A DNA stretch of 64,000 nucleotides, taken from assembly GCF_003431825.1 (NCBI RefSeq), contig NZ_CP020083.1:310001-374000 (forward strand), read 5' to 3'. A program made the position numbers and the translations under genes. The notes beneath the pieces were generated by a model, which saw only the letters and a list, made by a program, of their open reading frames with translations, was not told where the DNA came from and made no database searches. The first letter of the stretch is position 1; the number at the start of each line of letters is the position of its first letter. Below are positions 3,136 to 20,742 of the stretch, piece by piece. This stretch comes from Blastomonas fulva. GTDB lineage: Bacteria; Pseudomonadota; Alphaproteobacteria; Sphingomonadales; Sphingomonadaceae.

Positions 3136-3169
3136 CTTAAAGACAATAGCAACCGGCAAGGCAGTTCCT

Positions 3170-4198: not shown

Positions 4199-4466
4199 CC
4201 TTGCCTAACACCATATGGTGGTAATGTGCTGCTTATTCTGAGGCTTTTCGAGCAAATGGAAGCTTCGCAATGTCGTTTTCGACCATGGCGAGTGAACGCA
4301 TATATGATGCCAGATATTTGACCTGAAAGCTCGGATGGGAGCGCGTATCTGGCCGCCGTCTTCGCAACCTCAATTCGGCAGCTGCTGTGGCGAGTGGGCG
4401 TTTACTGTGAACTACGTGAATGACCGTGTCTGATCGGCAGCTGACATGGTCGCAGCCTTGACCAGC

Positions 4467-5591: not shown

Positions 5592-5790
5592 GTTAATGAA
5601 ACTCCGATTATCCTAACACGACATAGCGCACATGGCAGCGAAATGCCGGTCGCGCGCACTCGAAAATTGTTTGACTGGCGTCGCACGACGGAAGCGCCCA
5701 AAATGACACCCACCAAAGCGAGACTTTTCGGGCGCGCGCGATCTCTCATCCCGAGAGCATCCATAACGATGACGATATGGTGGCGCCTTA

Positions 5791-5810
5791 ACCCATCCCC
5801 TGAACTGGGT
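5791..5810 (+). promoter_or_regulatory. Possible lux-box-like dyad upstream of luxI
   Basis: ACCCA and TGGGT arms separated by 10 bases give a 20-bp dyad. This is the length and arm spacing of LuxR-type binding sites. It ends 60 bp before the luxI start. The inner positions do not match the classic consensus well, and no luxR gene is in the window, so this is tentative. Confidence 0.3.
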
Positions 5811-5870
5811 ATACCGGCGAAAGTCCGATCGTGGTCTGGTTCGAAGGACAACAGTTCTGGGACAACAGCC

Positions 5871-6494
5871 ATGATCAGCGCCGTTACTCATCCGAAAATT
5901 GCGGAAAGCAGCATGGCCATGTGCGCCATGTTTGCGGCCCGCAAGCAGGTGTTTGTGGATCTCCTCAAATGGGACCTTCCCGTCCTCGACGACCGGTTCG
6001 AGATCGACCAGTTCGACACGCCAGATGCCCGCTACCTGATCCTGCTCGGCGCAGATGGACAGCATCGCGCCTCGGCCCGCCTGCTGCACACCACAGGGCC
6101 GCACATCCTGGGCGATCTGTACCCCCATCTGTGCAACGGCCAGGTTCCGCGAGGTCCGCGCATCCTGGAGATCTCGCGCTTCTGTCTTGACCGGAACCAG
6201 GACGCTGGATCGCGCCTGTCGGCCCGCAACCAGCTTGTGACCGCGCTGGTCGATCACGCGATCGATGAGGGCATCAACTATTACACCGGCGTTGCCGAGC
6301 TTGGCTGGCTCGCCCAGATCCTCCGCTTCGGGTGGCAATGCGAGCCGCTGGGGGAACCTCAGGGCAATAAGGGGTCGAAAATCGGCGCCCTCCGCATCGG
6401 GATCGATGACCAGACACGGGCCAAGCTGGAGCGCACTGGTATCTACACCCCGTTGTCGCTGCAGCTTATTGAAAGCCGGGAGTCAGTTGCATGA
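5871..6494 (+). CDS. Acyl-homoserine-lactone synthase (LuxI family)
   Basis: A quorum-signal synthase of about 207 residues that joins an acyl chain to S-adenosylmethionine. The conserved residues of the family are present at the usual positions: R24, F28, W34, D46 and D49, then the RASARLL strand and LEISRFC with its Glu and Arg. ATG 5871 puts these at standard numbering; longer in-frame starts back to 5643 do not add family sequence. The stop overlaps the dioxygenase start by ATGA, so the two are translationally coupled. No luxR lies next to it, so the receptor must be elsewhere or the signal is used without a local partner. The acyl chain cannot be predicted. Confidence 0.92.
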   Translation: MISAVTHPKIAESSMAMCAMFAARKQVFVDLLKWDLPVLDDRFEIDQFDTPDARYLILLGADGQHRASARLLHTTGPHILGDLYPHLCNGQVPRGPRILEISRFCLDRNQDAGSRLSARNQLVTALVDHAIDEGINYYTGVAELGWLAQILRFGWQCEPLGEPQGNKGSKIGALRIGIDDQTRAKLERTGIYTPLSLQLIESRESVA

Positions 6495-7357
6495 ACGCTA
6501 TGTCGTCCGAAACGCTGGCAGACGCACTGCTGGATAGAGGCTTTTGCATCGTGCCTGATCTCGTGCCGCGCGCCACCATCGAGGCACTTGCCACCGATCT
6601 CGACCCGGTGTTCGCGGCCACGCCCTTTGGGCAGGGCTGTTTTTATGGCTACCGAACCAAACGCTTTGGCGGTCTGCTCCGGCGATCGGCCAATTCGCAT
6701 GCACTGGTTCTTGAAAAAACCATAATGGGGGCAGTGCAGGCCATTCTTGGGCAAGCCTGCGACCGCATCCAGCTCAATGTCGCGCAGGCCATCGAGATTC
6801 ATCCCGGCGAGCAGCGCCAGTTCCCCCACCGGGACCATGATATGTGGAACGGCGAAAAAGGTGCACACGAGTATCTGGTCAATGTGATCTGGCCACTGAC
6901 GCCATTCAGCGCAGCGAACGGCGCAACCCACATCTATCCCGATAGCCACGGCGCAGACGGCATGGCGCGGCAGGATCCGGGCGCACCGGTTATCGCAGAG
7001 TGCGAACCCGGAGCCGCGATCTGTTTCCTCGGTTCAACTGCCCACGGAGCGGGCGCCAATGTAACCAGTCAGGTCAGGCGCGGCGTCGTCATCGGCTACA
7101 GCCTGGGCTGGCTCAAGCCCTATGAGAATCTGTGGCTTGCCTATCCGCCATCCGTAGCCCGGACGTTTCCTCCCGACCTTGCGGCACTGGCAGGCTATGT
7201 CCAGCACCGACCCAATCTCGGCAATTACGAGGGCCAGTGCCCGTCCGTTCTTCTCGGCGATGTCGTGCCGGAACATCTCGGAGCCATCGACGCCCTGCGC
7301 CCCGATCAGGAAGCGATGCTGGATGCATTCGCCGAGCAGGAGCCCATAAGCCGGTGA
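6491..7357 (+). CDS. Phytanoyl-CoA dioxygenase (PhyH) family Fe(II)/2-oxoglutarate oxygenase
   Basis: A soluble oxygenase of 288 residues. The iron facial triad is visible as H113-x-D115 (FPHRDHD) and H185 (STAHGAG). R196/R197 (QVRRG) are the likely 2-oxoglutarate anchor. It is translationally coupled to the upstream luxI and the downstream GntR gene (GTGA overlap). I recall phyH-like genes being reported downstream of luxI in sphingomonads, but that is recollection rather than a search result. A plausible role is hydroxylating the acyl-homoserine lactone or a co-regulated metabolite; this is inference. Confidence 0.85.
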   Translation: MNAMSSETLADALLDRGFCIVPDLVPRATIEALATDLDPVFAATPFGQGCFYGYRTKRFGGLLRRSANSHALVLEKTIMGAVQAILGQACDRIQLNVAQAIEIHPGEQRQFPHRDHDMWNGEKGAHEYLVNVIWPLTPFSAANGATHIYPDSHGADGMARQDPGAPVIAECEPGAAICFLGSTAHGAGANVTSQVRRGVVIGYSLGWLKPYENLWLAYPPSVARTFPPDLAALAGYVQHRPNLGNYEGQCPSVLLGDVVPEHLGAIDALRPDQEAMLDAFAEQEPISR

Positions 7358-7947
7358 GCCCTGCACATGTCATCGAGCCGACCTATGAAGCGATCAAGCG
7401 CCGATTGATGCATGGCCACTGGCCGCCGGGAACGCGGCTGGAGGCTGCAAGGATTGCAGACCTGCTTCATGTCAGCATCACGCCGGTACGCGACAGCCTG
7501 TATCGGCTGACAGGTGAGCGCATGGTCGACTTTACGCATGGCGAAGGATTTCATGCGCCGCGGATGACCGAAAGCGATTTGCGCGGCATGCTCGAGCTGC
7601 ATCTTGTCCTGATGCTGGCAGCGCTGGCGACCCAAGTGCGCGATTCAATTACGCCAGTGGGCCGGCTGGACAAAGGATCAGACGGATTTGGTTTGCTGTT
7701 CCTTGCGATTGCCCGGCGCTCGGGTAACGCCGAGCTTGCAAGCTGCATTGCTGGCCTCGGTGACCGGCTCCATATCGCCCGTCTCGCCGACACCGAGATA
7801 CTTGGCGACACAGCTGACGAGCACGGCGCTCTCGAAGCGGCCTATTCAAAAAACGCAACTCACCCAGAAGTCCGCGCGCTGTTGCTGCACTACCATGAAC
7901 GACGCGCGCAAGAGGCTGCTGCCTATATCCGGCATATCACCGCCTGA
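7354..7947 (+). CDS. GntR family transcriptional regulator (short FCD type)
   Basis: A regulator of about 197 residues starting at GTG 7354, which overlaps the stop of the PhyH gene. The N-terminal winged helix is clear (PPGTRLEAARIADLLHVSITPVRDSLYRLTGERMV). The following helical domain is shorter than a full FCD domain and has few of its metal-binding His residues. As the third gene of the luxI operon it may control that operon or respond to its product. A longer in-frame start at 7132 would lie inside phyH and is not favoured. Confidence 0.8.
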   Translation: MSPAHVIEPTYEAIKRRLMHGHWPPGTRLEAARIADLLHVSITPVRDSLYRLTGERMVDFTHGEGFHAPRMTESDLRGMLELHLVLMLAALATQVRDSITPVGRLDKGSDGFGLLFLAIARRSGNAELASCIAGLGDRLHIARLADTEILGDTADEHGALEAAYSKNATHPEVRALLLHYHERRAQEAAAYIRHITA

Positions 7948-8086
7948 CACGAAGCATTGCTGCAGGATGCTCAAGTCGCCTGCACGTACGACTTTTCCTT
8001 GTCATTGCAATGGCATCCTGACATCATTGGCATGCACGGGGCATATCTGGCAGTCCGGTGCGGGATACTCCGCCAGGCATCAAAAG

Positions 8087-8110
8087 CGCCTGTCCATTCA
8101 GGGACAGGCG
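8087..8110. terminator. Stem-loop, possible terminator of the luxI operon
   Basis: CGCCTGTCC and GGACAGGCG pair perfectly around a six-base loop. No run of T follows on the plus strand, while four A precede it, so intrinsic termination on the minus strand or a factor-dependent role are both possible. Confidence 0.4.
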
Positions 8111-8298
8111 GCCGTAACGGATCATGTGACCCTCTTTGAGTCACCGAACGTCGGCGCAGCACTGGATGATGGACAGACTGGCTTCGCCCGGCCTGTCGAT
8201 CTGTGCCGTGCGGGTACTGCTGCGTGTCGTCGTCAAAATGGAAAAGCCTTTCTTCCGAACGTCACCCGTTCTCGGTGTCATCGGCATGCCACGCTCAT

Positions 8299-8314
8299 CC
8301 GGACGATCGTCCGG
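8299..8314. promoter_or_regulatory. 16-bp perfect palindrome before the ECF sigma start
   Basis: CCGGACGATCGTCCGG, ending 14 bp before GTG 8329. It may be an operator or an RNA hairpin that limits translation of the sigma factor. No protein can be assigned from sequence alone. Confidence 0.4.
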
Positions 8315-8328
8315 TGCAGAGCGGGACG

Positions 8329-8832
8329 GTGTCGCGCGAGACGAGCGATCTGGATACGGCCTTTCGGGAACATGCCTCTGCGCTGCTGCAGTTTCTGCGT
8401 CGCAAGGCGAGCCCGCAGGAAGCGCCCGATCTGGTGCAGGAGGTGTTCGCAAGGGCAGCAGGCAGCGCCCAGAGGCACAGCCTCGTCAACCCTGGCGGCT
8501 TTCTCCGCCGCATCGCCCAGAACCTGCTGATCGACCGGTCTCGCAAGGTTCATCGGCATGGGGCACCTGAGGTGTCGTTCTGCGAAGAACGGGATTTTGT
8601 CACACCCCCACAGCAGGAATGGAGCATGGAAGCGGCTGATCTGATGAGCCTTTATGAAGCAGCCGTGGACTCGATGTCACCCAAAACGCGCGAGGTTTTT
8701 CTGATGCACCGGGTCGACGAACTGACATATCGCGAGATACACGAGCATCTGGGAATCAGTGTTGCAACGGTGGAATACCACATGATGAAGGCGCTCGCGC
8801 ATATCGCGCAAGCCGTGGACTATAATCGATGA
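8329..8832 (+). CDS. ECF sigma factor, FecI-like
   Basis: A protein of about 167 residues. Region 2 (FREHASALLQFLRRKA, DLVQEVFARA) and region 4 (SPKTREVFLMHRVDELTYREIHEHLGISVATVE) are both present. GTG 8329 is chosen because region 2 begins about ten residues later; upstream in-frame sequence looks non-coding. Its end overlaps the FecR start by ATGA. With FecR and a TonB receptor it forms a surface-signalling trio, here attached to a lasso-peptide isopeptidase. It likely transcribes the receptor/isopeptidase genes, and possibly the precursor. Confidence 0.92.
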   Translation: MSRETSDLDTAFREHASALLQFLRRKASPQEAPDLVQEVFARAAGSAQRHSLVNPGGFLRRIAQNLLIDRSRKVHRHGAPEVSFCEERDFVTPPQQEWSMEAADLMSLYEAAVDSMSPKTREVFLMHRVDELTYREIHEHLGISVATVEYHMMKALAHIAQAVDYNR

Positions 8833-9839
8833 CGCACAAGCACCGCGATGACACGATCGATGACGCTGCGCGCACTTGGCTGATCAGGATGCGGGGTCCG
8901 GATGCTCCCCAGCTGCGTCACGAGTTAGAAGCCTGGCGCGCTGCCGATCCAGCGCATCACGCGGCATATGAGCGGGCTGAAGCCATCTTGGTACAGTCCG
9001 CTATTCTGAAAGGGTCTGTGCGACATGGCCAGAGCCGCAAGTCCCGCCTGGCCCCTCAAAGACCCTTTGTTCGGCGGTGGCTCACCGCCGGTGCGCTGGC
9101 GGCTGCCGCGGCCATGCTGTTTGTGGCGATCAGTGCCGGAGGCGCCTCTCTTTCCGGCCCTCACGGTCAAAATCCCATGGCTGCCTGGGCTGCCGAGCCG
9201 CTGGTGACAAGGCACGGCGAAATCAGAAGCTTCCGTCTTGATGACGGATCCGTTGTCACACTCGATACCGACAGCCGCCTTGACGTGGCGTTGACTGATA
9301 ATGCGAGGATCGTGAAGCTGGCCAGAGGTCGGGCACGCTTGCAGATCGCCACTGACGTGCGGCCATTCCGCATTCTGGCAGGGTCCGGTCAGGTCACCAC
9401 AACGCAGGCCTTACTCGATATCGGTTACGACAGCGAAGGTATGATCGGCCTCACTCTGTCCGATGCCGCGGCGGTGATCGCACCAGCTGGCCAGACTACC
9501 CACAAATCCGTGATGCGGGAGATTCCTGCAGCAACTCCCCTGGTATATCGCGCCGATGATGCCGCGCTGAGACTTGGGGCACAGTCGTCGGACTTTGGCG
9601 ACAGTGATTGGCCGTCTGGCTGGGCGGAATACCGCACGGTCAGGCTCGACCAGCTGGTGGCCGCAGCCAACCGCTATGCGGCGGTTCCGATCATCATAAA
9701 GGACCCTGCCATTGCCCGGCTCGAAGCGTCTGGTCGTTTCAAGATCAGCCAGACGGATACCTTCGTCAGGCGCCTTGCACAGCTGTTCGATCTTGCCGTC
9801 GAGCGCAGGGCCGACGGCATATATCTGCAACGGCGATAA
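8829..9839 (+). CDS. FecR family anti-sigma factor/signal transducer
   Basis: A single-pass inner-membrane protein of 336 residues. It has a cytoplasmic N-terminal domain of the DUF4880 type (AARTWLIRMRGPD, WRAADPAHHAAYERA) and one membrane helix around residues 82-106. A periplasmic FecR domain follows (GEIRSFRLDDGSVVTLDTDS), and the C-terminal part contacts the receptor's STN domain. It keeps the upstream sigma factor inactive until the receptor signals that it is loaded. It is coupled to the sigma gene by ATGA. Confidence 0.93.
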   Translation: MTHKHRDDTIDDAARTWLIRMRGPDAPQLRHELEAWRAADPAHHAAYERAEAILVQSAILKGSVRHGQSRKSRLAPQRPFVRRWLTAGALAAAAAMLFVAISAGGASLSGPHGQNPMAAWAAEPLVTRHGEIRSFRLDDGSVVTLDTDSRLDVALTDNARIVKLARGRARLQIATDVRPFRILAGSGQVTTTQALLDIGYDSEGMIGLTLSDAAAVIAPAGQTTHKSVMREIPAATPLVYRADDAALRLGAQSSDFGDSDWPSGWAEYRTVRLDQLVAAANRYAAVPIIIKDPAIARLEASGRFKISQTDTFVRRLAQLFDLAVERRADGIYLQRR

Positions 9840-9942
9840 TTTTTCTAATGCCTGACTAAGGTGCCCCGACAACCATCGTCATTCCCCCTTCAAAGGCCGT
9901 GTGTCTCCTCGACAAGCGGCCCCAAACCGAAGGGGGATCAGG

Positions 9943-12486
9943 ATGATGTCAGGAAAATCACAGGTGATGCGTGCGCTGATGGCCAGCGTGGCGCTGGGGC
10001 TTATGCCAGTTGCAGCGCACGCCCAGCAGCAGGAAAAAATGGTCTACGACCAGCCAGCGCAGGACTTAGGCAACGCGCTGCGCAGTGTGGCCACGCGGGC
10101 CGGAATCGAACTCTATGCCTCGGCGGATGATCTTGACGGACTGCAGGCGCCAGCCCTGAAGGGCGATCTTACGACACGCGAAGCCTTCGAGGCCCTGTTG
10201 CGAGGCACTGGCCTAACCGCGCGGTTCGAACGGGGATCGGTCACGATCGGACGCGCTAGTGGCAGGCGAGCTGATGAAGCTGGCTCGCAATCCGATCCCA
10301 TAATTGTCACAGGATCACGCATCAAGGGTGCGCCCTCGGCTGTTCCGGTCACGACAGTAACCAGCGAGGACATCCGCAATGCCGGTCAGAACGATCTGGG
10401 CGAAGTCGCACGCAGCCTGCCGCAGAATTTTGGTGGTGGCCAGAACCCGGGCATTGGCAACTCGCAAGGTGCTCAAAACGAAAATGTGAACGTCAACGGG
10501 GCATCGACTTTCAACCTGCGCGGGATCGGCCCCAATGCGACTCTGACGCTGATCAACGGCAATCGTTTTGCCTTCAGCGGGGTCAACTCGGTCATCGATG
10601 TGAGCGCAATTCCGGTGTCGGCGGTCGAGCGTGTCGAGGTGATCGCCGATGGCGCTTCGGCGATCTACGGCGCAGATGCGGTGGCGGGCGTCGTCAATAT
10701 CATCCTTCGGAAAAGCTACGATGGCGTGTCCACCAGCGCGCGCGTAGGCGGATCGACCGACGGCGGCAATTTTCAGCAGCAGTTCAGCGTACTGGCCGGG
10801 ACCAGCTGGTCGACCGGCGGAGTAATGGCTGCTTATGATGTCAGCAGCAATTCTTCGATCCAGGCCGGGTCGCGCAGCTATGCCGTCTCGAACAATCCGG
10901 ATGCCACCCTGTTCCCCGACCTGCGTCGGCACGCCGTGCTCGTCAGCGCCCACCAGGCTTTTGGTGATCGCGTCGAACTGAGCGCCGACGCCATTTTCAA
11001 GACGGGCAGACAGATCGGGGCCTCGGGCTTCTCGGCTACTGTGCCAATCACTACGTCTGGCAACCAGGTTCGCACCGAGTTCGAGACATTCGGGATTGCT
11101 CCGAAAATCGTCGTCGATCTGTCTGACGACTGGACCTTCGAGATCCTCGGCTTTTATGGCACCGACACAACCGATGGTCTTACCCGGGTTTTTTCAGGAG
11201 GCATTCAGACGAGCACCGGCCCCCGATACTTCTTCAACCGGAATTTTTCTGTGGAGGCGGGGCTTCAGGGCGCGCTGTTCGAACTGCCCGCAGGACCCGC
11301 CCGTATTGCAGCGGGCGCTGGTTACCGCTCCAGTTTTTTCGAGGCGAGGCTTGGCGGCAGGGCGTTCGACCAGCTTCGGAAAAACTATTTTGCCTATGGG
11401 GAGTTGTTTGTGCCGCTCACCAGCCCGGAACAGGGCGTCTCGCTCGCGCACCGGGCGTCGCTGACGGGCGCGCTGCGCTATGAGGATAACTCGGATTCGG
11501 GCGACATCGTCACTCCGAAGCTTAGCATGATCTACGAGCCGGTAGCCGGGCTGACGTTTGGCATCTCATGGGGCAAATCATTCAAGCTGCCGACGCTCTT
11601 TCAGCAATATACGGGCTATTCGGCGGTTCTCGTTCCGGTTGGCGGCTTCGGACAGGGTTTTCCGGCGAGCGCGACGCTCGCGATTGCCCAAGGGGCAAGC
11701 GAAATTCTGGGGCCTGAGCGCTCGGAAAACTGGACCTTCAGCGCGACGACGAAACCGGTAGAAGGTCTGGAGCTGTCCGCTGCCTATTTCCATATCGACT
11801 ATACGGACCGGGTAACACCTCCGCTGCCCTCAGGTGCTGGCGCGCTCAACAATCCGATCTTCGCAGATCTGATCACCTTCAATCCGTCAGCAGCCTTGCT
11901 CGATGCACTGTTCAGCGGCGCAAATGGAGGGCTACAGAATGGGACTGGCGCTCCCTATGACCCGCGGCGCGTGATTGCGCTTCTTGATGCGCGCACCCGC
12001 AATATTGCCCAGCAGACCTATAGCGGCGTCGATGTGTCGCTACGATATGACCTTGAGACTGGCCCGGGTCAGCGGCTCTCGCTGAGCGGCGGCGGTACAT
12101 GGATGGAAAGCAGCCAGCGTCTTCTTCCCGGGCTGCCCGTGACCGAACTTGCCGGAAACATCTTTTTTCCGCCGCATATTCGCGCGCGGGCCGGGGCGAC
12201 TTACAGCACAAAGCGGTTCTCGCTCTCTTCCTTCGTCAACCATAGCGGCGGAGTAACCGACAATCGCAGACCGGCTCGAACTAAGCTGTCTTCATTCACC
12301 ACCCTGGATCTGACGGCGCGTCTGACGCTGGGCAGTGGCACTGAGATCGCGCTTAATGCCCTCAACATTCTCAACGAAAAGCCCGATCGCATCTTCACGG
12401 CGGCCGCGTTCGACGCAGCATTCGATTCGACCAATTACTCGGCGGTCGGACGCTTTCTCGGCCTGACGGTGCGCCATGACTGGTAA
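9943..12486 (+). CDS. TonB-dependent receptor with N-terminal STN signalling domain (lasso-peptide locus)
   Basis: An outer-membrane receptor of about 847 residues. Start ATG 9943 follows a good Shine-Dalgarno (GGGGATCAGG); a signal peptide ends at AHAQQ. The STN domain (YDQPAQDLGNALRSVATRAG) is followed by a TonB box (PIIVTGSRI). The plug (RVEVIADGASAIYGADAVAG) and a 22-strand type barrel come next, ending in the usual aromatic residue (VRHDW). The STN domain marks it as a transducer working with FecR and the ECF sigma factor. From context its ligand is probably a lasso peptide, either self-made or from relatives. It overlaps the isopeptidase gene by 11 bases. Confidence 0.93.
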   Translation: MMSGKSQVMRALMASVALGLMPVAAHAQQQEKMVYDQPAQDLGNALRSVATRAGIELYASADDLDGLQAPALKGDLTTREAFEALLRGTGLTARFERGSVTIGRASGRRADEAGSQSDPIIVTGSRIKGAPSAVPVTTVTSEDIRNAGQNDLGEVARSLPQNFGGGQNPGIGNSQGAQNENVNVNGASTFNLRGIGPNATLTLINGNRFAFSGVNSVIDVSAIPVSAVERVEVIADGASAIYGADAVAGVVNIILRKSYDGVSTSARVGGSTDGGNFQQQFSVLAGTSWSTGGVMAAYDVSSNSSIQAGSRSYAVSNNPDATLFPDLRRHAVLVSAHQAFGDRVELSADAIFKTGRQIGASGFSATVPITTSGNQVRTEFETFGIAPKIVVDLSDDWTFEILGFYGTDTTDGLTRVFSGGIQTSTGPRYFFNRNFSVEAGLQGALFELPAGPARIAAGAGYRSSFFEARLGGRAFDQLRKNYFAYGELFVPLTSPEQGVSLAHRASLTGALRYEDNSDSGDIVTPKLSMIYEPVAGLTFGISWGKSFKLPTLFQQYTGYSAVLVPVGGFGQGFPASATLAIAQGASEILGPERSENWTFSATTKPVEGLELSAAYFHIDYTDRVTPPLPSGAGALNNPIFADLITFNPSAALLDALFSGANGGLQNGTGAPYDPRRVIALLDARTRNIAQQTYSGVDVSLRYDLETGPGQRLSLSGGGTWMESSQRLLPGLPVTELAGNIFFPPHIRARAGATYSTKRFSLSSFVNHSGGVTDNRRPARTKLSSFTTLDLTARLTLGSGTEIALNALNILNEKPDRIFTAAAFDAAFDSTNYSAVGRFLGLTVRHDW

Positions 12487-14695
12487 GCCGCGCACAAAAT
12501 ACGCAAACCTCGGCAGATGCTCGCTTCTTGGGGGGTTGGCATTGATCGTATCCTGTCCGGCAGCGATGGCCGACGATCCAGGCCGCCGCTGGACGCCAGA
12601 AGACATCGTGTCAGTGCCAAAGGTGATCTCGATGGCATTGTCATATGATGGAGCAGAACTGGCTTATCTCGAGCGGACAGTGGACATTGCCGGGAACCGC
12701 ACATTGCTCGTGCTGTATCGGCTGGATCTGGCTTCGGGCGCCAGGGCAGAGGTTGCGCGTGCGATTGCAGCCGATAAGCTCGAGGCAATTGCAGGGAAGC
12801 GGGCCTGGAATGTCCTGCTCGATCTGGGCGACGGACAGCAGCTGTACCAGATCGATTCTGGCGCATCGGCGCGACTTGTTCTTGCCAGCGAGGCAAAGGT
12901 CACTGTCGGACAGGCCGAGGGCAATCTATTTGCCGTATCGTCCCTCGCACCCCATCGCGTCGGCGTACTGGCCTATGACTGGTCACCGGATCGCAGATGG
13001 TTGTGGTATGCAGCACTCAAGCCGGGGCCCAGCGATACCCGGGTCCAGTTCGACAGCGAGGTAACGGCGCAAAAGCACCGGCGCCGTGCTCCTGTCCCTG
13101 CTGTTGTCGAGCTGCGGCTGCGTTCGTCGTCAGGGGAAGACACGCTGATCGCAACCCGCCCCACAAGCGATCGCCTCGCATTCTACTTAGGCGCCACCGT
13201 GCGATGGGGCGAAGACGGGCTGCGGTATTTCGTCGAGACCACATCGGGCATCAAAAGCGATGAGTCAGAAGCTTTCGATCTGAAATTTGCCTCGCTGGTC
13301 AGCACTTCGGCGGGAACGCTGCCTGGCCTTCCATCGGTCGACTATCTCAAGGGCCCGCATGGTGGCCAGTTGGCCAGCGAAGGAACCGGCGCGTCGCTGG
13401 ACCTGATAGAAACAGGTCCGGACGGAACGAAACATAGCTATGGCAGATACGGTTTCTATATCGGGGATCCAAGGTCCGCAGCGAGCTGGAGATCCGAGGA
13501 CGGCAAACGCCTGGTTCTCGGCGTGCGGACTACCACCCACCCGCGTTATGGACTGGCTGTCGTTTCGAAAGCAGGCATACGCACAATCCTTACCGGGAAA
13601 AGCCTGAGCCGATGCGATTTTCGGGCTGATCTATCATGGGGCATCTGTGTGGAGGAATCGCTCAGCCAGCCGCCCCGGTTTGTCAGGGTCGAGCCCGGCA
13701 GCGGCAGGATCACAAAGGTGCTGACTCTCTCGGCGCGGCATGAAGCGATAGCGCCTTTGAAAATCACAGCACACCAGTGGAAGAACAGGGCTGATCACAT
13801 TGCCACGGGTTTCATCGTTTGGCCTCGCGATTATATAAAGGGCCAGCCGTACCCCGCAATCCTCGTGACCCATGGCAGTGATGCGGATGAGCGATTTGCA
13901 GATCAGGATCTTCAATGGGATTTTCCCGTGCAGGCCTGGGCCGAACGGGGTTATGTTGTTGTTCTGATCAATGACCCATCTCCCCGCCTGAACCCGGACC
14001 TGATGGCGGGTTATGCCCAATGGCGCTCGGGCAAAGGCCACCTGTCCCCGGCTAAAGTTCAGGATAGTGCCTGGATTGGTGTGGTGCATATGCTGGAAGA
14101 TGTCGTGAGCCAGCTGGTCAGCGATGGGCTTGTGGATCGCAGCCGGGTCGGAATTGCCGGCTATAGCAGGGGATCGCAGATCACGAACGTGGCCGTCACG
14201 CAGTCCGGTCTTTTCAGAGCGGCTTCAAGCGGTGATGGCAGCTTTCTCGAGCCTTCAGCCTGGTCCCAGGTGACGCGGTCTTACACAGCCATCTTTGGCG
14301 GTCCCCCAGCCGGGGATTTCCTGGAGAATTACCGCCGCCTTTCGCCCTCTCTGCGCGCCGATCATGCCTGTGCAGCTGTCCTCCAGCAGATGGCAACGCC
14401 CCTTGCCGGTGCGATTGATTTCCACATGAGCCTCCGGGCTGCGCGCGTTCCTTCGCAGATAAGCCTTTATCCAGGCGAAACGACCGCTACCGATGAGACG
14501 CACCTGTTTCACATTCCATCGAACCGTCTGGCTGCCATGCGCGAGAACCTTGCATGGTTTGATTTCTGGCTCCGCGATGTGGAGCAGACTGACGCCTCCT
14601 CTGCGGGACGTGCCGGCCACTGGATCGAAATGGCGCGCAGCCGTCGCGACAATTGCCCGACATTTCCGGCTATTTCATCCCATGCCCCCCCTTGA
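12476..14695 (+). CDS. Atxe2-family lasso peptide isopeptidase (prolyl-oligopeptidase fold)
   Basis: A secreted/periplasmic enzyme of 739 residues that would hydrolyse the isopeptide bond closing a lasso ring. A signal peptide is followed by an N-terminal beta-propeller-like domain (about 40-430) and an alpha/beta-hydrolase domain with the nucleophile in GYSRGSQ (Ser564) and a probable catalytic His676 (DETHLF). Where the third triad residue is expected, about 35 residues before the His, I see MATPLAG with no Asp; D648 is the nearest acid. The gene follows the TonB receptor directly, as in astexin-type clusters. Its end overlaps the convergent cyclase gene by 26 bp. Specific recognition as Atxe2-like rests on fold plus neighbours. 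Confidence 0.85.
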   Translation: MTGKPRTKYANLGRCSLLGGLALIVSCPAAMADDPGRRWTPEDIVSVPKVISMALSYDGAELAYLERTVDIAGNRTLLVLYRLDLASGARAEVARAIAADKLEAIAGKRAWNVLLDLGDGQQLYQIDSGASARLVLASEAKVTVGQAEGNLFAVSSLAPHRVGVLAYDWSPDRRWLWYAALKPGPSDTRVQFDSEVTAQKHRRRAPVPAVVELRLRSSSGEDTLIATRPTSDRLAFYLGATVRWGEDGLRYFVETTSGIKSDESEAFDLKFASLVSTSAGTLPGLPSVDYLKGPHGGQLASEGTGASLDLIETGPDGTKHSYGRYGFYIGDPRSAASWRSEDGKRLVLGVRTTTHPRYGLAVVSKAGIRTILTGKSLSRCDFRADLSWGICVEESLSQPPRFVRVEPGSGRITKVLTLSARHEAIAPLKITAHQWKNRADHIATGFIVWPRDYIKGQPYPAILVTHGSDADERFADQDLQWDFPVQAWAERGYVVVLINDPSPRLNPDLMAGYAQWRSGKGHLSPAKVQDSAWIGVVHMLEDVVSQLVSDGLVDRSRVGIAGYSRGSQITNVAVTQSGLFRAASSGDGSFLEPSAWSQVTRSYTAIFGGPPAGDFLENYRRLSPSLRADHACAAVLQQMATPLAGAIDFHMSLRAARVPSQISLYPGETTATDETHLFHIPSNRLAAMRENLAWFDFWLRDVEQTDASSAGRAGHWIEMARSRRDNCPTFPAISSHAPP

Positions 14696-16421
14696 GCCCG
14701 TCAGAGCTGGTCCACCACTGCGCCCATGCCTCTGCAGCACATATTGCCAGGATCCGACGCGCGGATTGGGATCCCGCCGCGGTAGGAAGCTGCGCCTGGC
14801 TGAGGATCGAAAGGTCCAGCATTCCGGCTTGGGCCAAAAGGCCCCCACGCAGAAAATCTTCGGCTTTGCTGCGGTTTGCGAGATATATGTCCCTCATGAA
14901 GCCAGAGGGGCCTCCTTTTGAGGTTCGTCTGAGCAGTTCGTCCGGCACGATCCCCCCGAAAGCTGCGCGGGCGACTGCCCTGTTGGCCCCGCCATGAACC
15001 CAAAGCCACGTTGGAATGCTCAAGCACAGTTCGACGACTGGCTGAGACATCAGCGGAGCAATATGCGTCAGATAAGTCTGGCGCGGATACAGCTCGATGC
15101 TGCGATGAGCCCGGAGGAGCTGCTTCACATGTCCGATCTTGCCCGGAAGGGCGTTCTGCGGCGGATTGAGCCAGGGATGGAGCGGCTGTTGGGGTGCCAT
15201 CGCTTCGAAGAACGATGATGACAGACCCAACGTGTCACACAAAGTCCGGGGCGGGCTGCCCGCCTTTCGATAGATATCCCAGGCATGTCGGAGAATCGTC
15301 ATGCCGTCCGCTCCGGTCAGGACGCCGATATCGCGCAGAGTATTCATGATTCCAGAGCGTGAGCCCTGAGACATGAACCGGTCGACGAACGGAGCGGCCG
15401 TGCGAAGGCTGCAGAACACGTTGTCACCACCATTACCGGAAAAATATGCATCTACAGGCTGATCATCACGAAATGCAGAATGGGTGGCCTGCATTGCCTG
15501 CAGAAAATACGCGGCATTTGGCCAGGGGTGGGTGGGCGCCGCAGGCTGCTCAATAACGACCGATCCGATGTCGAAGTGCCGCTCGTGCAGCCGAAGGCCG
15601 AGCGCATCCGTCAGAACAGATGCATAGCGACGCTCATCCCCACCCGCTCCGCTGCTGACAAAATTGACACAATGCAGTGCTGCGGCTCCTGGATGGGCGC
15701 AGCAGGCGACTATAGAAGAGTCCAGCCCTCCGGAAACTCCGATCAGGATGGAATGGAAACAGGATGCCCAAGCCCCGCCGCAGTCAAAAGCGACCTTGCG
15801 AAGTCTGGCTGCGGCGTCGTCGAATTTAGGAGGTGTTTCCGGGCAGGTCCATTCCCATGGCGACCACCATTCATGCAGGGTATTTCTTGCTGGCGAACTG
15901 TTCAGGCACTCACCTGCCAGCAATTCGGAAACGCCGGACAGACAGGTGTTGCGGCCCATTGCATCCGGGCTGGCAAGAAGTCTGCCGATCTCTGTCAGAT
16001 TGACAGCCCCCGCCCCCCGGCTCGCGAGATCGGCTACATCGCCCGCCAGCACTGCGCCGTCGGCGCGGGTCCGATAATAACACGGCAGCAGGCCGGACGG
16101 GTCGCGTAGCACCGAGACAGCACCATCTGGCCCAGCCACGACCGCAACATAAGCACCCCAGAATTCCTTCAGAAGCATGCGTCCATTGCTGGCTTCGATT
16201 GCGCGGGCTGTTTCAGTATCGAACTCCAGAACGCGGCGAGAAGGCGATGTTTGGGAAAACAAATGTCCGATGATGCAGCCAGTGCTGCCAATCCGGATTA
16301 CGGGTAAATGGCTCCACACGCGGACTGCAGGATTATTGAACGAAGGCTCTCCCATATCGCTGACGGAACGGACCTGTGAGGAAGCGCCCGGGTTAATGTC
16401 TATGATGAAACGCCCTGCCAT
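14670..16421 (-). CDS. Lasso peptide cyclase (asparagine-synthetase-like C protein)
   Basis: An ATP-dependent macrolactam synthetase of 583 residues. The N-terminal half resembles a class II glutaminase domain that lacks the catalytic N-terminal Cys (it begins MAGRF). The C-terminal half is an asparagine-synthetase domain with the ATP pyrophosphatase loop ILIGVSGGLDSSIV and a later SGNGGDNVFCS motif. It adenylates the ring acid of the precursor core and closes it onto Gly1. The start ATG at 16421 overlaps the B-gene stop by one base, so B and C are translationally coupled. The 3' end runs 26 bp into the convergent isopeptidase gene. Confidence 0.92.
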   Translation of the reverse strand: MAGRFIIDINPGASSQVRSVSDMGEPSFNNPAVRVWSHLPVIRIGSTGCIIGHLFSQTSPSRRVLEFDTETARAIEASNGRMLLKEFWGAYVAVVAGPDGAVSVLRDPSGLLPCYYRTRADGAVLAGDVADLASRGAGAVNLTEIGRLLASPDAMGRNTCLSGVSELLAGECLNSSPARNTLHEWWSPWEWTCPETPPKFDDAAARLRKVAFDCGGAWASCFHSILIGVSGGLDSSIVACCAHPGAAALHCVNFVSSGAGGDERRYASVLTDALGLRLHERHFDIGSVVIEQPAAPTHPWPNAAYFLQAMQATHSAFRDDQPVDAYFSGNGGDNVFCSLRTAAPFVDRFMSQGSRSGIMNTLRDIGVLTGADGMTILRHAWDIYRKAGSPPRTLCDTLGLSSSFFEAMAPQQPLHPWLNPPQNALPGKIGHVKQLLRAHRSIELYPRQTYLTHIAPLMSQPVVELCLSIPTWLWVHGGANRAVARAAFGGIVPDELLRRTSKGGPSGFMRDIYLANRSKAEDFLRGGLLAQAGMLDLSILSQAQLPTAAGSQSARRILAICAAEAWAQWWTSSDGLKGGHGMK

Positions 16422-17062
16422 CAGACCACCAGTATCGGCTTATAGGGCTCGACCAGATCGAGAGGGTCGGTCAGGATGGTGTCACCAGACTGAACCCAGG
16501 CATGCGCTGAAAAGGGAAGCGCTACCCCAATCACAAGGTCCACATGACATCCGTGGCTGGCAAGAACCTTCTTCATGGCGATACTCCTGACGAGGCACTG
16601 GTCTTTTGCCGGAACGAAATGCCTTGCCCGCTGAAATGCGGCTGTCACAAGGGAGACCTGGTGATTTTGGTCCTGCGCGACGCGCTGCGCAGTTGACCAG
16701 CCTGGTTTCAGTATCTCCGCAAAAGGCAGACGCCGGAGCATCCGCCGTGCTGTGATCTGTGCTGCAATCGCTCTGATGGTGGAGACAACGTCAGCAGACA
16801 GCGATGGATGATTTTCAAGGCCGGATGTCGGAGCCGGGACTTTAGGGTTATGCAATGTCGGATCATCGCAACCCTCGGTTATGATGTTCCGTGCGATCAG
16901 CCAGTGAAAGTCGGCGGCATCAGCACTTTGCTCAAGGAATCGCCGGAACCTCGCGTCCGCTCTGTCTTGCAGCAGAAAATATCGTGCGCGGTCAACGTCG
17001 AGAAATATCGAGGCTGACGCAAAGAGGCAGTAGCGCAGGTGCGGAGACAGTCTGTAGGTCAT
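16421..17062 (-). CDS. Lasso peptide leader peptidase B (fused RRE + transglutaminase-like protease)
   Basis: A protein of about 213 residues. The N-terminal 80 residues look like a PqqD/RRE leader-binding domain (IFLDVDRARYFLLQ). The C-terminal part is the B2 cysteine protease, with Cys in AKDQCLVRSIAMKK, His in SAHAWVQ and Asp in LTDPLDLVE. It recognises the precursor leader and removes it. ATG 17062 is chosen because it begins the RRE domain; an in-frame start at 17110 would fall inside the hairpin that follows the precursor gene. It lies 60 bp downstream of the precursor and overlaps the cyclase by one base. Confidence 0.92.
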   Translation of the reverse strand: MTYRLSPHLRYCLFASASIFLDVDRARYFLLQDRADARFRRFLEQSADAADFHWLIARNIITEGCDDPTLHNPKVPAPTSGLENHPSLSADVVSTIRAIAAQITARRMLRRLPFAEILKPGWSTAQRVAQDQNHQVSLVTAAFQRARHFVPAKDQCLVRSIAMKKVLASHGCHVDLVIGVALPFSAHAWVQSGDTILTDPLDLVEPYKPILVV

Positions 17063-17087
17063 CGCAATGGGACAATGATCAGCAAAT

Positions 17088-17113
17088 GGCGTGCAGCCAG
17101 CAGGCTGCACGCC
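17088..17113 (-). other. Stem-loop between lasso precursor and B gene
   Basis: GGCGTGCAGCC and GGCTGCACGCC form a perfect 11-bp stem with a four-base loop. It starts 9 bases after the precursor stop and ends 25 bases before the B start. No strong U-tract follows, so it is best read as an mRNA-stabilising or attenuating hairpin. It would let the precursor be expressed above the enzymes. Confidence 0.65.
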
Positions 17114-17122
17114 ACCCGCTGC

Positions 17123-17266
17123 TCAGTCCTCGGAAGCAAGGCCGAAGACCAGGAACCGCTGATTGGTCTCGAGGTCTTCGTCGCCGAGGATCGAGGCACC
17201 GTGGGTTTCGTCCTGGACGGCACCCAGATCGATGACATCGTCATGCTGAGGTTCAAACGAGTTCAT
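17123..17266 (-). CDS. Lasso peptide precursor (A peptide), 47 residues
   Basis: ATG 17266-17264 follows a Shine-Dalgarno (AAAGGAAC), and TGA lies at 17125-17123. The product begins MNSFEPQHDDVIDLGAVQ, an acidic leader. It then has D-E-T21-H22-G23, which gives the Thr at position -2 and the Gly at core position 1 expected of proteobacterial lasso precursors. G15 and T21 keep the usual GxxxxxT leader spacing. The predicted core is residues 23-47 (25 residues), starting GASILGDEDLE. Ring acceptors D29, E30 and D31 are core positions 7, 8 and 9, so 7-, 8- or 9-residue rings are all possible. The tail holds R37, F38, L39 and F41 as candidate steric plugs and ends in SED. Followed by a hairpin and the B and C genes. 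Confidence 0.88.
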   Translation of the reverse strand: MNSFEPQHDDVIDLGAVQDETHGASILGDEDLETNQRFLVFGLASED

Positions 17267-17342
17267 GCTCAGTTCCTTTCCGTAATATGCGACTGGGATA
17301 GTCGCCGGGAAAGGCTATGCCCGGTTGAACGTCAGCTCCATT

Positions 17343-17359
17343 TTATAATCCGATTATAA
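17343..17359. promoter_or_regulatory. Operator-like palindrome upstream of lasso precursor
   Basis: TTATAATC-C-GATTATAA is a perfect 8-bp inverted repeat around one central base, 76 bp upstream of the precursor start. Each arm contains TATAAT, so it may overlap the -10 region of a promoter. A partly similar string (ATAATCGGAT) occurs near 17670. Confidence 0.5.
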
Positions 17360-17505
17360 TTGGTTCTAGCAGATCTAAAACGTGACCGAGCAATAGGAAA
17401 CGCACGTCGGATGCACGTACTGACACCTTTAGCTGTACGCCTGGACATGCGTGTCAGAACCCGGTCACACGCCGATATTAAATCAGCGTTTGTCAATACT
17501 GACTC

Positions 17506-17867: not shown

Positions 17868-19019
17868 TCAGCTTTCCTTGTCACAGTAGGCGGCCCATCC
17901 CGCCATCATGACGCGCCTCTTCTCCAGCAGGTTGCCGCGCCGGTAAGCTGCCTCAGTCTTGTTTGCCACGACGTGCGCCAACGCCGCCTCGGCAACATCA
18001 CTGGGATGCTCCGTCTCCTCGCTCACCCAATCGCGAAACGATGAGCGAAAGCCGTGCGGTGTGTACGGCTGGCCCATCTCCTTCATCAGCTTGGACAGCG
18101 TCATGTCAGACAAGGGCTGCATATTCTTGAAGCCGGGAAACACATAGGGCGACTCCCGAAGGCGAAGTTGCTTGCAACGGCGCAGGATACGCATTGGGCG
18201 GGAGGCCAGAGGGACCACATGTTCGCGAAATGCCTTCATCCGTTCCTTAGGGAGGGTCCAGAGGCCGTCTTCGAGGTCAACCTCATCCCAGGTCATGCCG
18301 CGCACCTCGCCAGACCGGGCAGCCGTGAAGATGGCAAACTCCAGCGCCAGACGGCTAAAAGATTCTCGTGACCGCAACTTCTGGACGAATTTCGGCACCT
18401 TCTCGTAGGGCATGGCAGGAAAGTGGCCATCACGGCGCGGCTGACGCGGCAGGCCTTTGGTGATAGCGCGCATCGGCGCTTCGGTATCGCGATAGCCGGA
18501 CGCATATGCCCAATCTAAAACTACCCCTACCCGCTGCCGGACCCTTCGTGCCGTTTCCGGCTTTGTCAGCCAAATTTCGGCGAGAAGGTCACGGATCATG
18601 GGCCCCGTGATCCTGTCGACCTTCATCTTGCCGATGAAGGGAAACGCATATGCTTCAAGGGTTCGCATCCACTGGCCGTGGTGCTTGCCATTGCGCCAGG
18701 TCTTCGAGTGAACCTCATAGACCCGCTGCGCTGCATCCTTAAAGCTCGGCACGGCGTCGACCTTTCGCCGCTCGAACTGCGGGTCGAGGCCCATCTCGAC
18801 CTGGCTTCGTACTTCGCGCGCCCGTTCGCGGGCATCAACCAGGCTAACCTTGCTGCAGCTACCCAGGCCAAAATCTCTCCGGTCGCCCTTGTGCTGCACC
18901 CGGCAAACCCAGCTGCTGCTCCCTCCCGGCCTCTCATAGCGATAAAGGCCGTCACCGAACCCTACTCGGCGGGTGGTCTGGCTCCTGGTAGCAGAGCCTG
19001 TCTTGGAAGTCGTTTTCAT
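17868..19019 (-). CDS. Tyrosine recombinase/integrase (P4-like)
   Basis: A site-specific integrase of about 383 residues. The N-terminal arm-binding domain (DGLYRYERPGGSSSWVCRVQ) precedes a SAM-like core-binding domain. The catalytic domain has Arg in SGEVRGMTWDEVD, HGFRSSFRDW (H-x-x-R), a second His in LAHVV and the Tyr in TEAAYRRGN. ATG 19019 is used because the conserved part follows closely; in-frame starts at 19031 and 19082 exist. The gene lies 143 bp from the 3' end of tRNA-Ser, the classical attachment target, so it marks the edge of an integrated element extending leftward. Which of the genes to the left are its cargo is not proven. Confidence 0.92.
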   Translation of the reverse strand: MKTTSKTGSATRSQTTRRVGFGDGLYRYERPGGSSSWVCRVQHKGDRRDFGLGSCSKVSLVDARERAREVRSQVEMGLDPQFERRKVDAVPSFKDAAQRVYEVHSKTWRNGKHHGQWMRTLEAYAFPFIGKMKVDRITGPMIRDLLAEIWLTKPETARRVRQRVGVVLDWAYASGYRDTEAPMRAITKGLPRQPRRDGHFPAMPYEKVPKFVQKLRSRESFSRLALEFAIFTAARSGEVRGMTWDEVDLEDGLWTLPKERMKAFREHVVPLASRPMRILRRCKQLRLRESPYVFPGFKNMQPLSDMTLSKLMKEMGQPYTPHGFRSSFRDWVSEETEHPSDVAEAALAHVVANKTEAAYRRGNLLEKRRVMMAGWAAYCDKES

Positions 19020-19161
19020 GGAGGTGATCATAAAATTTGTTCCCACATTTGCAAAAATGTCGGCCTGGACGACGTGGGACACATTTGGATCCGAATCACC
19101 AGCGTAACCCGCAGGAAAGCTGGACGTCTGGAGCCAGTCAGGGATTTTGTGGGATTAGTAC

Positions 19162-19252
<91 letters not shown>

Positions 19253-19863: not shown

Positions 19864-20742
19864 TCAGGAGCGCAGCTTCCATCCCGAGCGCAGCAATGCG
19901 TAGCAGGCAAAGCCCAGCGCGACGTTGATCGCCAGCAACAACCCCGCGCCCAGCAGCAGCGGCGAATCGGCCGAGCCGATGAAGCCATAGCGGAAGCCCG
20001 AGATCACGTAGAAGAACGGGTTGGCGTGGCTGAGCGTGCGGAACGCTGGTGCCATCGCCTCGACCGAATAGAAGGTCCCCGAAAGCAGCGCGAGCGGGGC
20101 GACCACGAAGTTGGTGATGGCAGCGGCGTGATCGAACTTCTCGGCCCATACCGATGTCAGCACGCCCATGAACGCCAGCATCATCGCGCCCATCAGCCCG
20201 AACCACAATATTGCCAGCGGATGCTGCGGAGTCACGTCGATCCCCGGCCACAGCAGCATCGCCAGCCACACCGCTGCGCCGACCAGAAACGCGCGAGTGA
20301 CCGCGGCGATGACCAGCGACACCAGCACTTCAAGCTCGGACAGCGGCGGCATCAGATAATCGATGATCGTGCCCTGGATCTTGCCGACCAGCAGCGAGAA
20401 GCTGGAATTGGCAAAGCTGTTCTGCATCATCGCCATCACGATCAGCCCGGGGGCGAGGAAATCGGCGAAGGGCACGTCCAGCACGGTGCGTCCGCTGCGC
20501 CCCAGAGCGACCGTGAATATCACCAGATACAGCATGGTGGTGATCGCCGGAGCCCAGATGGTTTGCAACTGGACCTTGAAGAACCGGCGCACCTCTTTCA
20601 TATAGAGGGCTTTCAACCCTCCCCAGTTGATCGTGCCAATCCGGACGGTGCCTGGCTCTGCAAAGGCCGGACCCGTTCCCAATTCGGGCCGATTGCCCGC
20701 CGCAGCAGCGGCGGCGGAGGGATTTGGTGCTTGATCGTTCAT
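19864..20742 (-). CDS. ABC-2 type transporter permease
   Basis: A 292-residue integral membrane protein with six predicted helices and the ABC-2 permease signature region (PFADFLAPGLIVMAMMQNSFANSSFS). No ATP-binding subunit is encoded in the window on either side, so its partner is elsewhere. The N-terminus (about 45 residues) is Ala/Pro-rich and cytoplasmic. It is divergent from gcrA. The substrate is unknown. Confidence 0.88.
   Translation of the reverse strand: MNDQAPNPSAAAAAAGNRPELGTGPAFAEPGTVRIGTINWGGLKALYMKEVRRFFKVQLQTIWAPAITTMLYLVIFTVALGRSGRTVLDVPFADFLAPGLIVMAMMQNSFANSSFSLLVGKIQGTIIDYLMPPLSELEVLVSLVIAAVTRAFLVGAAVWLAMLLWPGIDVTPQHPLAILWFGLMGAMMLAFMGVLTSVWAEKFDHAAAITNFVVAPLALLSGTFYSVEAMAPAFRTLSHANPFFYVISGFRYGFIGSADSPLLLGAGLLLAINVALGFACYALLRSGWKLRS

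Follow-up and report, generated by a model that had tools for sequence, protein, structure and literature searches.

What do isopeptidase-type lasso peptide clusters do for the bacteria that carry them, and which signals switch them on? The natural role of these peptides is still called enigmatic in the sections of PMC9266682 that treat them. We addressed the question with a locus from Blastomonas fulva. The window analyzed here is a 64,000-nucleotide stretch covering positions 310001-374000 of contig 1 (NZ_CP020083.1) in a 4.12-Mb genome. A first-pass annotation had described positions 8329-17266 as a complete lasso locus with its own surface-signaling module. The genes of that locus are real, but the conserved unit is larger and extends from about 5.56 to 17.53 kb. 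We propose, with a probability of roughly 60%, that this unit is a self-contained lasso circuit of the isopeptidase (sphingopyxin) type. It also holds quorum-sensing genes, a GntR gene, two folded RNA elements that we call R1 and R2, and an operator-like palindrome. The first-pass annotation overlooked all of these, and each bears directly on regulation. The regulatory surroundings are richer than it reported and are the part most worth following up. The quorum-sensing system and the two folded RNA elements of the unit provide a concrete handle on the purpose of such clusters; among the open-access papers listed in our searches, no title or abstract opening gave an earlier description of either beside a lasso locus.

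The lasso identity of the locus is very likely. An open reading frame check found seven lasso and signaling genes where they had been placed before (Table 1). Genes for an ECF sigma factor, a FecR protein, a TonB-dependent receptor with an STN domain and the isopeptidase E lie on the forward strand and converge on genes for the cyclase C, the protease B and the precursor A on the reverse strand. With E ending at 14695 and C at 14670, the two genes overlap convergently by exactly 26 bp, as annotated earlier; the B stop codon and the C start codon share one base (TGATG). The products exceeded the Pfam cut-offs for ECF sigma regions 2 and 4, FecR and DUF4880, the STN, plug and barrel domains of the receptor, Peptidase_S9, Asn_synthase, Transglut_core3 and Subterisin. 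Profile searches matched B, C and E to lasso families, with B above its curated cut-off, C and E below theirs, and a strong match of E to 5jrk. B had been called an RRE-protease. The protease assignment holds (NF033537 and PF13471 both pass), but the N-terminal half, searched for an RRE or PqqD-like domain, matched no model in Pfam (E up to 0.1) or NCBIfam (E up to 1). Because only residues 111-229 of B were matched, the RRE label is unverified.

The isopeptidase was compared with its characterized relatives. Residues 21-736 of its 739 residues align to residues 35-751 of 5jrk with 632 bits. Entries 5jrk and 5jrl are structures of SpI-IsoP, the sphingopyxin I isopeptidase reportedly described by Fage et al. 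in 2016. The homology to SpI-IsoP is thus nearly full length, but the window core is distinct from sphingopyxin I, and the enzyme is 43-55% identical to near-full-length SpI-type matches from Sphingopyxis. NF033523, the equivalog model for Atxe2, matched the C-terminal half only (158.2 bits) and its cut-off of 400 was missed. Judged by these alignments, the enzyme is filed as SpI-type and not as an NF033523 equivalog. The predicted catalytic residues, Ser564 and His676, fall at the positions of AtxE2 Ser527 and His638 in an alignment that includes 5txc; entry 5txe has Ala at the aligned Ser position. Among 43 aligned homologues Ser564 is invariant and His676 is kept in at least 90%. A signal-peptide-like N-terminus was found by a home-made rule in 83 of the 98 homologues with a Met start. 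The nearest named relatives come from Blastomonas.

We compared the locus with its relatives. A protein search returned 103 isopeptidase homologues, including the window's own, and the alignment of 43 led to 77 loci in named genomes, in which the sigma, FecR, receptor, E, C and B genes were annotated by script. By order of similarity, we call L001-L041 and the window SpI-type and L042-L077 Atx-type. Sigma and B genes both occur around the isopeptidase gene in 63 of the 77 loci (64 with the window), nearly always in the order sigma-FecR-receptor-E converging on C-B-A, which argues that the arrangement is not due to chance. L034, L039, L042, L047 and L060 are exceptions, with no B or C gene in the examined stretch, and several contigs end early. 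According to the portion of PMC9266682 that deals with isopeptidase clusters, their architecture hardly varies and includes a GntR regulator ahead of the precursor. Given the constant order and this agreement, the window locus is, as a lasso cluster, an ordinary new member of a described type.

The related loci also allowed us to predict the peptide. Automated annotation of 65 loci, window included, yielded 75 precursors with a conserved Thr-X-Gly junction; Thr at position -2 is typical of leader/core junctions. All 41 SpI-type precursors, the window's own among them, have an acidic residue at core position 9 (7 also at position 7, 6 at position 8), and 30 of 34 Atx-type cores have one at position 8. 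The window core GASILGDEDLETNQRFLVFGLASED carries acids at positions 7, 8 and 9, and comparison with the 41 SpI-type precursors places the predicted ring closure at Asp9. The computed monoisotopic mass of the predicted lasso peptide is 2677.287 ([M+H]+ 2678.294). There are 29 distinct cores among the 41. Related loci carry cores of the sphingopyxin pattern.

DNA alignment of related loci revealed a conserved block before the precursor gene, which we named R1. In an alignment of 31 sequences (A2), R1 forms a three-way junction in which stem P1 encloses P3 and P2, the latter with an inner stem. Pairs are formed in 94.3% of cells, two-sided changes occur at 14 of 27 pairs, and none of 500 shuffled alignments reached any of the five measures. 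RNAalifold returned the same helices minus three end pairs. The window copy alone folds with unusual stability (z = -3.39), and its minimum-energy fold keeps P1 but not P2. R1 had no match in Rfam 15 at E up to 5 or at the gathering score, and a search of 20 additional loci at E up to 0.5 likewise gave none. The families asX1, mir-449, TB8Cs3H1 and RtT were rejected as identities for R1; their matches lie elsewhere and below cut-off.

Searched against 78 lasso sources, a model of R1 found 52 matches at E up to 1, a number that includes its training sequences. The B. fulva genome contains two significant copies, in the window (93.4 bits) and near 2274019 (47.6 bits), and two further matches at E above 3. 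Across 60 genomes (our own included), R1 was found in 17, with 23 hits, of which 9 are lasso-linked by their neighbors; one of these nine (L111) lies beside a broken cluster. We also searched 249 genomes of the family, counting 40 isopeptidase loci: 37 over the NF033523 cut-off and three SpI-type loci of the same genus. R1 had 150 hits in 97 of these genomes, and among the matches listed 23 of the 34 hits of at least 60 bits lie near a counted locus.

R1 copies differ in the features that surround the junction. In an alignment of 29 non-lasso and 13 Atx-type copies (A3), an additional hairpin lies on the 5' side, and its loop pairs with the nucleotides that immediately precede the 3' strand of P1. 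All 42 sequences form three of the seven pairs drawn for this pseudoknot, and each of the three shows 3 to 4 pair types. Against the pseudoknot, the outermost of the seven pairs is unpaired in 28 of 42 sequences and the register varies among subgroups as judged by eye; two of the six helices drawn for A3 also count against the structure, the 5' hairpin stem with 62.7% of cells paired and another long-range helix with only 54.5%. Viewed by eye, many of the non-lasso and Atx-type copies immediately precede a start codon, and a hairpin is often placed where it would mask the Shine-Dalgarno site. No such 5' hairpin is seen in SpI-type copies like that of the window, which show a promoter-like conserved stretch upstream (by eye) and mostly end in a T-rich run. 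A consensus scanner found no sigma-70 promoter upstream of the window copy.

A second RNA element, R2, precedes the sigma gene. It consists of a stem (S1), a loop-to-downstream pairing and a hairpin. In an alignment of 21 sequences (A5), 90.1% of cells are paired and the covariation score was reached in none of 500 shuffles. The number of two-sided pairs was reached in 24 of the 500 and that of further pair types in 35, so covariation support is good but weaker than for R1. The window copy has z = -2.51 alone, and its minimum-energy fold keeps the hairpin but not S1. R2 matched no Rfam 15 family; the sole hit in the region at E up to 5 is a weak lncRNA hit of 9.2 bits. With only that match in the region, we dropped the idea that the R2 motif GCCAGGCAT is the end of a 5S rRNA. 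In the 249 genomes R2 had 27 hits in 22 genomes, 13 of them, by eye and among the matches listed, near a counted isopeptidase locus.

The two RNAs exclude each other at the head of the sigma gene. Among 64 loci this position holds R2 in 45 (20 of which supplied sequences to the R2 model), R1 in 14, neither in 5 and both in 0, so that one or the other heads the sigma gene in 59 of 64. R1 and R2 probably are structured non-coding heads of the two operons, given their covarying secondary structures and leader positions. Among the open-access papers listed in searches for sphingomonad RNA motifs, no title or abstract opening describes R1 or R2, which does not establish their absence from print.

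An unbiased motif search identified a palindrome, ATTATAATCGGATTATAAAATGGA, between R1 and the precursor gene. The motif scored 829, compared to 127 in one shuffled set. In the B. fulva genome it occurs at one place (up to 3 mismatches), read on both strands; a reversed control pattern also gave one match. Among loci with a precursor, 33 of 37 SpI-type loci carry it. A local regulator such as the GntR protein is a natural candidate for binding it. We did not find an ECF-type promoter shared by the receptor and precursor genes: the motif that scores best beside the receptor in SpI-type loci spans the end of fecR and probably reflects conserved coding sequence, and the fecR-receptor gap of Atx-type loci holds a weaker AT-rich motif (score 270, compared to 128 when shuffled). 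Between the palindrome and the ribosome-binding site lies a small hairpin (17289-17305, reverse strand) with apparent compensatory changes among relatives by eye; alone it is weak (z = -1.82 for a 51-nt stretch).

Quorum-sensing genes form the left end of the unit. The genome encodes one LuxI (a single match) and two LuxR proteins. The LuxI signature residues R, F, W, D, D, R, E and R are all present in the window protein, and each is kept in 45 or 46 of 46 aligned LuxI sequences. Three of the eight are named in PMC3704786. We counted neighbors in loci with a B gene and at least 19 kb of sequence (30 SpI-type, 27 Atx-type). For SpI-type and Atx-type loci, respectively, LuxI is present in 24 and 14, PhyH in 23 and 14, GntR in 29 and 24, and LuxR in 23 and 13. 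In SpI-type loci these four genes share the strand and the side of the sigma operon, and in many Atx-type loci they share those of the precursor operon. In the 249-genome sample, among the matches listed, LuxI lies within 16 kb of 26 of the 40 counted isopeptidase loci, R1 within 10 kb of 32, and both near 25. These counts are probably lower bounds, because SpI-type loci of other genera fall below the NF033523 cut-off and were left uncounted, making the number of isopeptidase loci at least 40. By a rough hand estimate, about 0.2 LuxI linkages would be expected by chance among 40 loci.

R1 and LuxI occur together. R1 is present in 24 of 24 SpI-type loci with LuxI and in 0 of 6 without. Over all 57 loci the figures are 34 of 38 and 5 of 19, and in the 249-genome sample, among the matches listed, 25 of 26 and 7 of 14. 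For Atx-type loci alone (10 of 14 and 5 of 13) the association is not significant (p = 0.13). The loci are related, so these co-occurrences are not independent events. We tentatively put forward, at somewhat less than even odds, that R1 and R2 represent two classes of cis-regulatory RNA not described before. R1 would be riboswitch-like, with its three-way junction and, in non-lasso and Atx-type copies, its loop-to-tail pseudoknot. It would have spread in Sphingomonadaceae, and lasso clusters would have adopted it with two expression platforms, one acting on translation ahead of the sigma gene in Atx-type loci and the other on termination ahead of the precursor in SpI-type loci such as the window's. 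On this view, its tracking of luxI suggests that R1 would read a metabolite linked to the LuxI-PhyH pathway or to growth state. RNA, quorum signal and surface receptor would then jointly time lasso production. If R1 and R2 are new riboswitch-like classes, they add new RNA sensors in sphingomonads, and R1, present in 97 of 249 family genomes, would be a general regulator there.

Two other accounts of these regulatory neighbors were weighed. R1 and R2 may be mobile or passenger RNAs (a terminator, a transfer site or a free-standing small RNA) that flank the cluster by chance, which we consider rather unlikely. Among the matches listed, 118 of the 150 R1 hits have no counted isopeptidase locus within 10 kb, some non-lasso copies sit among plasmid- or transposon-like genes as judged by eye, and the window copy, which has a T-run, is separated by 400 bp from an integrase gene. 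Chance flanking fits poorly with the fixed positions at operon heads, the mutual exclusion of R2 and R1 at the sigma gene and the tracking of LuxI by R1 in SpI-type loci, though not significantly in Atx-type loci. In addition, 29 of 33 non-lasso R1 copies have, within 250 nt downstream, an open reading frame of at least 60 codons with a Shine-Dalgarno-like site (a mechanical rule applied without a control). The genes downstream of non-lasso copies showed no common function by eye, with no family search made; sigma-like, GGDEF-like and small secreted-looking products are among them. The luxI-phyH-gntR genes, for their part, might be an independent quorum operon that merely shares a favored insertion site with lasso clusters. 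This view draws on the 78 of 104 LuxI genes in the 249 genomes that, among the matches listed, are not near a counted isopeptidase locus, and on the luxI-phyH pairing known in its own right from the loci treated in PMC3704786. The excess of observed over expected linkages and the two distinct arrangements, left of the sigma gene in SpI-type loci and beside the precursor in many Atx-type loci, make it comparably improbable.

The proposed circuit brings these elements together. Gene identities, conserved order, covarying RNA structures, the single-place palindrome and the luxI linkage are directly supported, and we infer every functional step from them. B would cut off the 22-residue leader and C would close Gly1 onto Asp9, giving a threaded 25-residue peptide of the mass predicted above. 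No transporter was recognized by eye among the listed reading frames of the unit, not every one of which was family-searched, and the peptide would leave the cell by a route other than a cluster-encoded exporter. The STN-TonB receptor would sense and take up the peptide and signal through FecR to the ECF sigma factor, which would raise the production of receptor and isopeptidase. The secreted isopeptidase would then cut the Gly1-Asp9 bond in the periplasm and terminate the signal. Population and metabolic gating would be superimposed: LuxI, with LuxR encoded 10.4 kb away in this strain, and GntR would set the level, GntR or another local regulator would act at the palindrome, and R2 and R1 would tune sigma and precursor output. 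The first-pass annotation had likewise envisaged import, periplasmic ring opening and expression tuned by receptor occupancy. Its family assignment stands, and parts for all three are present (STN and FecR profiles, the signal-peptide-like start of E). Import through the receptor and occupancy control are inferences from these parts, and the mechanism is plausible. If the unit does include the quorum genes, a local operator and two RNA leaders, the signal that switches on precursor and receptor becomes testable, with the RNA or the palindrome as reporter.

Several observations weigh against this circuit. Of the 28 Atx-type loci with a precursor, only 5 carry the palindrome, and 14 of the 40 counted isopeptidase loci, among the matches listed, have no nearby LuxI. 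The quorum circuit of this strain may be altered, because about 10.17 kb of DNA without a match in the congener G004, which carries locus L002, now separates the cognate luxR from luxI. Relative to L002, the receptor shows 95% identity and E, C and B show 63%, 63% and 50%, so tight co-evolution of receptor and peptide is not supported. Across 24 SpI-type loci, the partial correlation with the core tail is 0.05 for the receptor and 0.34 for E, and in 24 Atx-type loci neither E nor the receptor correlates with it.

The comparison with L002 also bears on how the peptide genes diverge. The sigma factor (95%) and FecR (83%) are conserved along with the receptor, and the core tail differs. The DNA match to G004 stops at window position 12494, at the end of the receptor gene, and restarts at 17077. 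The constant receptor, the lower identities of E, C and B and this break together suggest that the peptide machinery has been exchanged behind a constant receptor. Before adjustment, the core tail correlates with both E (0.55) and the receptor (0.47) across the 24 SpI-type loci. After adjustment for E the contribution of the receptor disappears, and receptor-core co-evolution was rejected as proof of import. The receptor may recognize the ring, which hardly differs between the window and L002 cores, or something else.

These patterns inform two other explanations of the cluster, both unlikely. The lasso peptide might be a siderophore-like carrier that binds a metal, an aromatic compound or another nutrient; the receptor would import the complex and the isopeptidase would free the cargo, with sensing secondary. 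Such a carrier would need the same genes, and the idea is raised in passages of PMC9266682 and PMC11006600. Sphingomonas BPH lost the ability to use phenanthrene when its lasso B gene was disrupted by Tn5, as described in the section of PMC11006600 on that mutant, and a receptor kept despite peptide divergence fits one that reads cargo or ring rather than tail. We recognized no gene linked to metals or aromatics in the unit (main reading frames by family search, the rest by eye), no cargo is known, and 29 distinct cores among 41 fit poorly with one shared cargo. Less likely still is a narrow-spectrum antibacterial that enters kin through the receptor, with the isopeptidase as immunity factor. 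There are precedents: microcin J25 enters its targets through a TonB receptor (cited in the relevant part of PMC11006600), and astexin-1, from an isopeptidase cluster, is credited with narrow-spectrum activity where PMC9266682 discusses it. The divergence of the tails and the apparent exchange of E together with C and B also resemble toxin-immunity pairs. The cluster has no recognized exporter, though, and the same discussion in PMC9266682 describes other known isopeptidase-type peptides as without antimicrobial activity.

We compared the unit, as the circuit proposed above, with other known systems. Astexin/benenodin (Atxe2-type) clusters, described in the portion of PMC9266682 devoted to them as lacking an exporter and having a GntR gene by the precursor, share the receptor and E genes converging on C and B with GntR beyond, as in L061 of Asticcacaulis benevestitus. 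They differ in that the window isopeptidase is under the NF033523 cut-off and the predicted ring has 9 rather than mostly 8 residues. Profiles did not find LuxR, LuxI, PhyH, sigma or FecR in L061, whereas the window unit has them, with LuxR displaced. The Novosphingobium luxR-luxI-phyH quorum loci treated in PMC3704786 have the same three genes. The AP12 luxI is in its list, and the AP12 contig is our lasso locus L033, assuming that the gene is the same; the main text of that paper has no word beginning with "lasso", and in the window the operon is tied to a lasso unit with luxR displaced. Among the open-access papers listed in our searches, no title or abstract opening links LuxI-PhyH to lasso clusters, which does not establish absence from print. 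The sigma-FecR-receptor module is like FecI-FecR-FecA, but its proteins miss the Fec equivalog cut-offs of NCBIfam despite exceeding those of Pfam, and its ligand is presumably the lasso peptide. The sphingocin cluster of Sphingomonas BPH (PMC11006600, in its main text) likewise has a precursor, B, C and an adjoining isopeptidase and TonB receptor, and its mutant phenotype is known; its precursor is different, and the term "sigma factor" is absent from that main text.

Table 1. Features of the lasso unit and its right flank (window positions)
Feature	Position	Strand	Basis
LuxI-type acyl-homoserine-lactone synthase	5643..6494; homology from ~5922, listed start probably too early	+	PF00765 73.7 bits (cut-off 24)
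PhyH-family (phytanoyl-CoA dioxygenase-like) oxygenase; 4-base overlap with luxI	6491..7357	+	PF05721 80.8 bits (cut-off 22)
GntR-family regulator	7132..7947; true start probably near 7354	+	PF00392 43.2 bits (cut-off 27)
R2, putative pseudoknot-type structured leader of sigma gene	8026..8126	+	Model hit 91.6 bits (own sequence in model)
ECF sigma factor	8203..8832; likely start GTG 8329	+	Sigma70_r2 and r4_2 over cut-off
FecR-type anti-sigma/signal transducer	8829..9839	+	PF04773 43.6 bits, PF16220 39.4 bits, over cut-off
TonB-dependent receptor, N-terminal STN signaling domain	9901..12486	+	STN 41 bits, Plug 57.3, barrel 93.5, over cut-off
Lasso peptide isopeptidase E, signal-peptide-like N-terminus	12476..14695	+	5jrk 632 bits; NF033523 158.2 bits (below 400)
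Lasso cyclase C, asparagine-synthetase-like	14670..16421	-	PF00733 72.5 bits; NF033561 79.5 and NF033535 33.6 bits, both below cut-off
Lasso leader peptidase B, transglutaminase-like C-terminal half	16421..17110; likely ATG near 17061	-	NF033537 76.6 bits (cut-off 33); PF13471 77.4 bits
Lasso precursor A, 47 aa	17123..17266; predicted core 17126-17200	-	NF033522 33.8 bits (cut-off 33, benenodin family); PF24178 31.9 bits (cut-off 27, Subterisin)
Small hairpin GCGACT...AGTCGC, 5' region of precursor mRNA	17289..17305	-	By eye in related leaders
Palindromic operator/promoter-like motif ATTATAATCGGATTATAAAATGGA; starts 94 nt before precursor start	17337..17360	-	Unbiased motif search
R1, three-way-junction RNA ending in T-rich run; ~110 nt before precursor	17374..17471	-	31-sequence alignment
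Tyrosine integrase beside tRNA-Ser; likely mobility gene, outside lasso function	17868..19082	-	NF007246 132 bits (below 434)
tRNA-Ser(CGA) flanking integrase	19163..19252	-	ARAGORN, Rfam RF00005

The flanks of the unit suggest that it is mobile. The cluster lies beside tRNA-Ser and an integrase gene in our strain and in G004, and elsewhere, by contig coordinates, in G001, G005 and G008. A LuxR gene at contig positions 304487-305239 encodes a protein 94% and 87% identical to the luxI-adjacent LuxR of L002 and L001. The luxR and luxI blocks are separated by 85 nt in G004 and by the unmatched DNA in our strain. Mobility is suggested by the differing places in congeners and by this intervening DNA. 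No convincing direct repeat of the tRNA-Ser end, as a mark of an island, was found in contig 300001-374000, where the best secondary matches are 14 bp. A permease-like reading frame at window 19864-20742 sits in DNA shared with G002 (86%). R1 was not found in G002, and its best NF033523 match is a 107-bit peptidase, a similar one of which occurs elsewhere in our genome.

A few loci stand apart from the rest. L034, L039 and L042 (Peristeroidobacter, Pseudoxanthomonas and Caulobacter, respectively) have repeated sigma, FecR, receptor and isopeptidase-like genes with no adjoining B or C gene. We rejected such orphan receptor-isopeptidase modules as evidence for scavenging non-producers, because a lasso B2 match lies outside the examined locus in all three genomes. 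L047, from an actinobacterium, has no B2 match, and its hydrolase is merely a 28% partial match. The lasso cluster of G014 (L111) appears degraded, with E, C, B and the receptor split into many frames and R1 still recognizable. L075 and L051 are lasso loci with two significant R1 matches each. By their motifs as judged by eye, R1 copies L113 and L142 precede GGDEF-like genes and L133 precedes a sigma-factor-like gene. The second B. fulva copy (L121, G000:C1:2274019-2274120, outside the window) is downstream of a gene that looks like DUF932. Window positions 1-5561 and contig positions 305390-310000 hold genes that we named by eye as Fic-like, beta-lactamase-like hydrolase, GntR, M28-like peptidase and TonB receptor genes.

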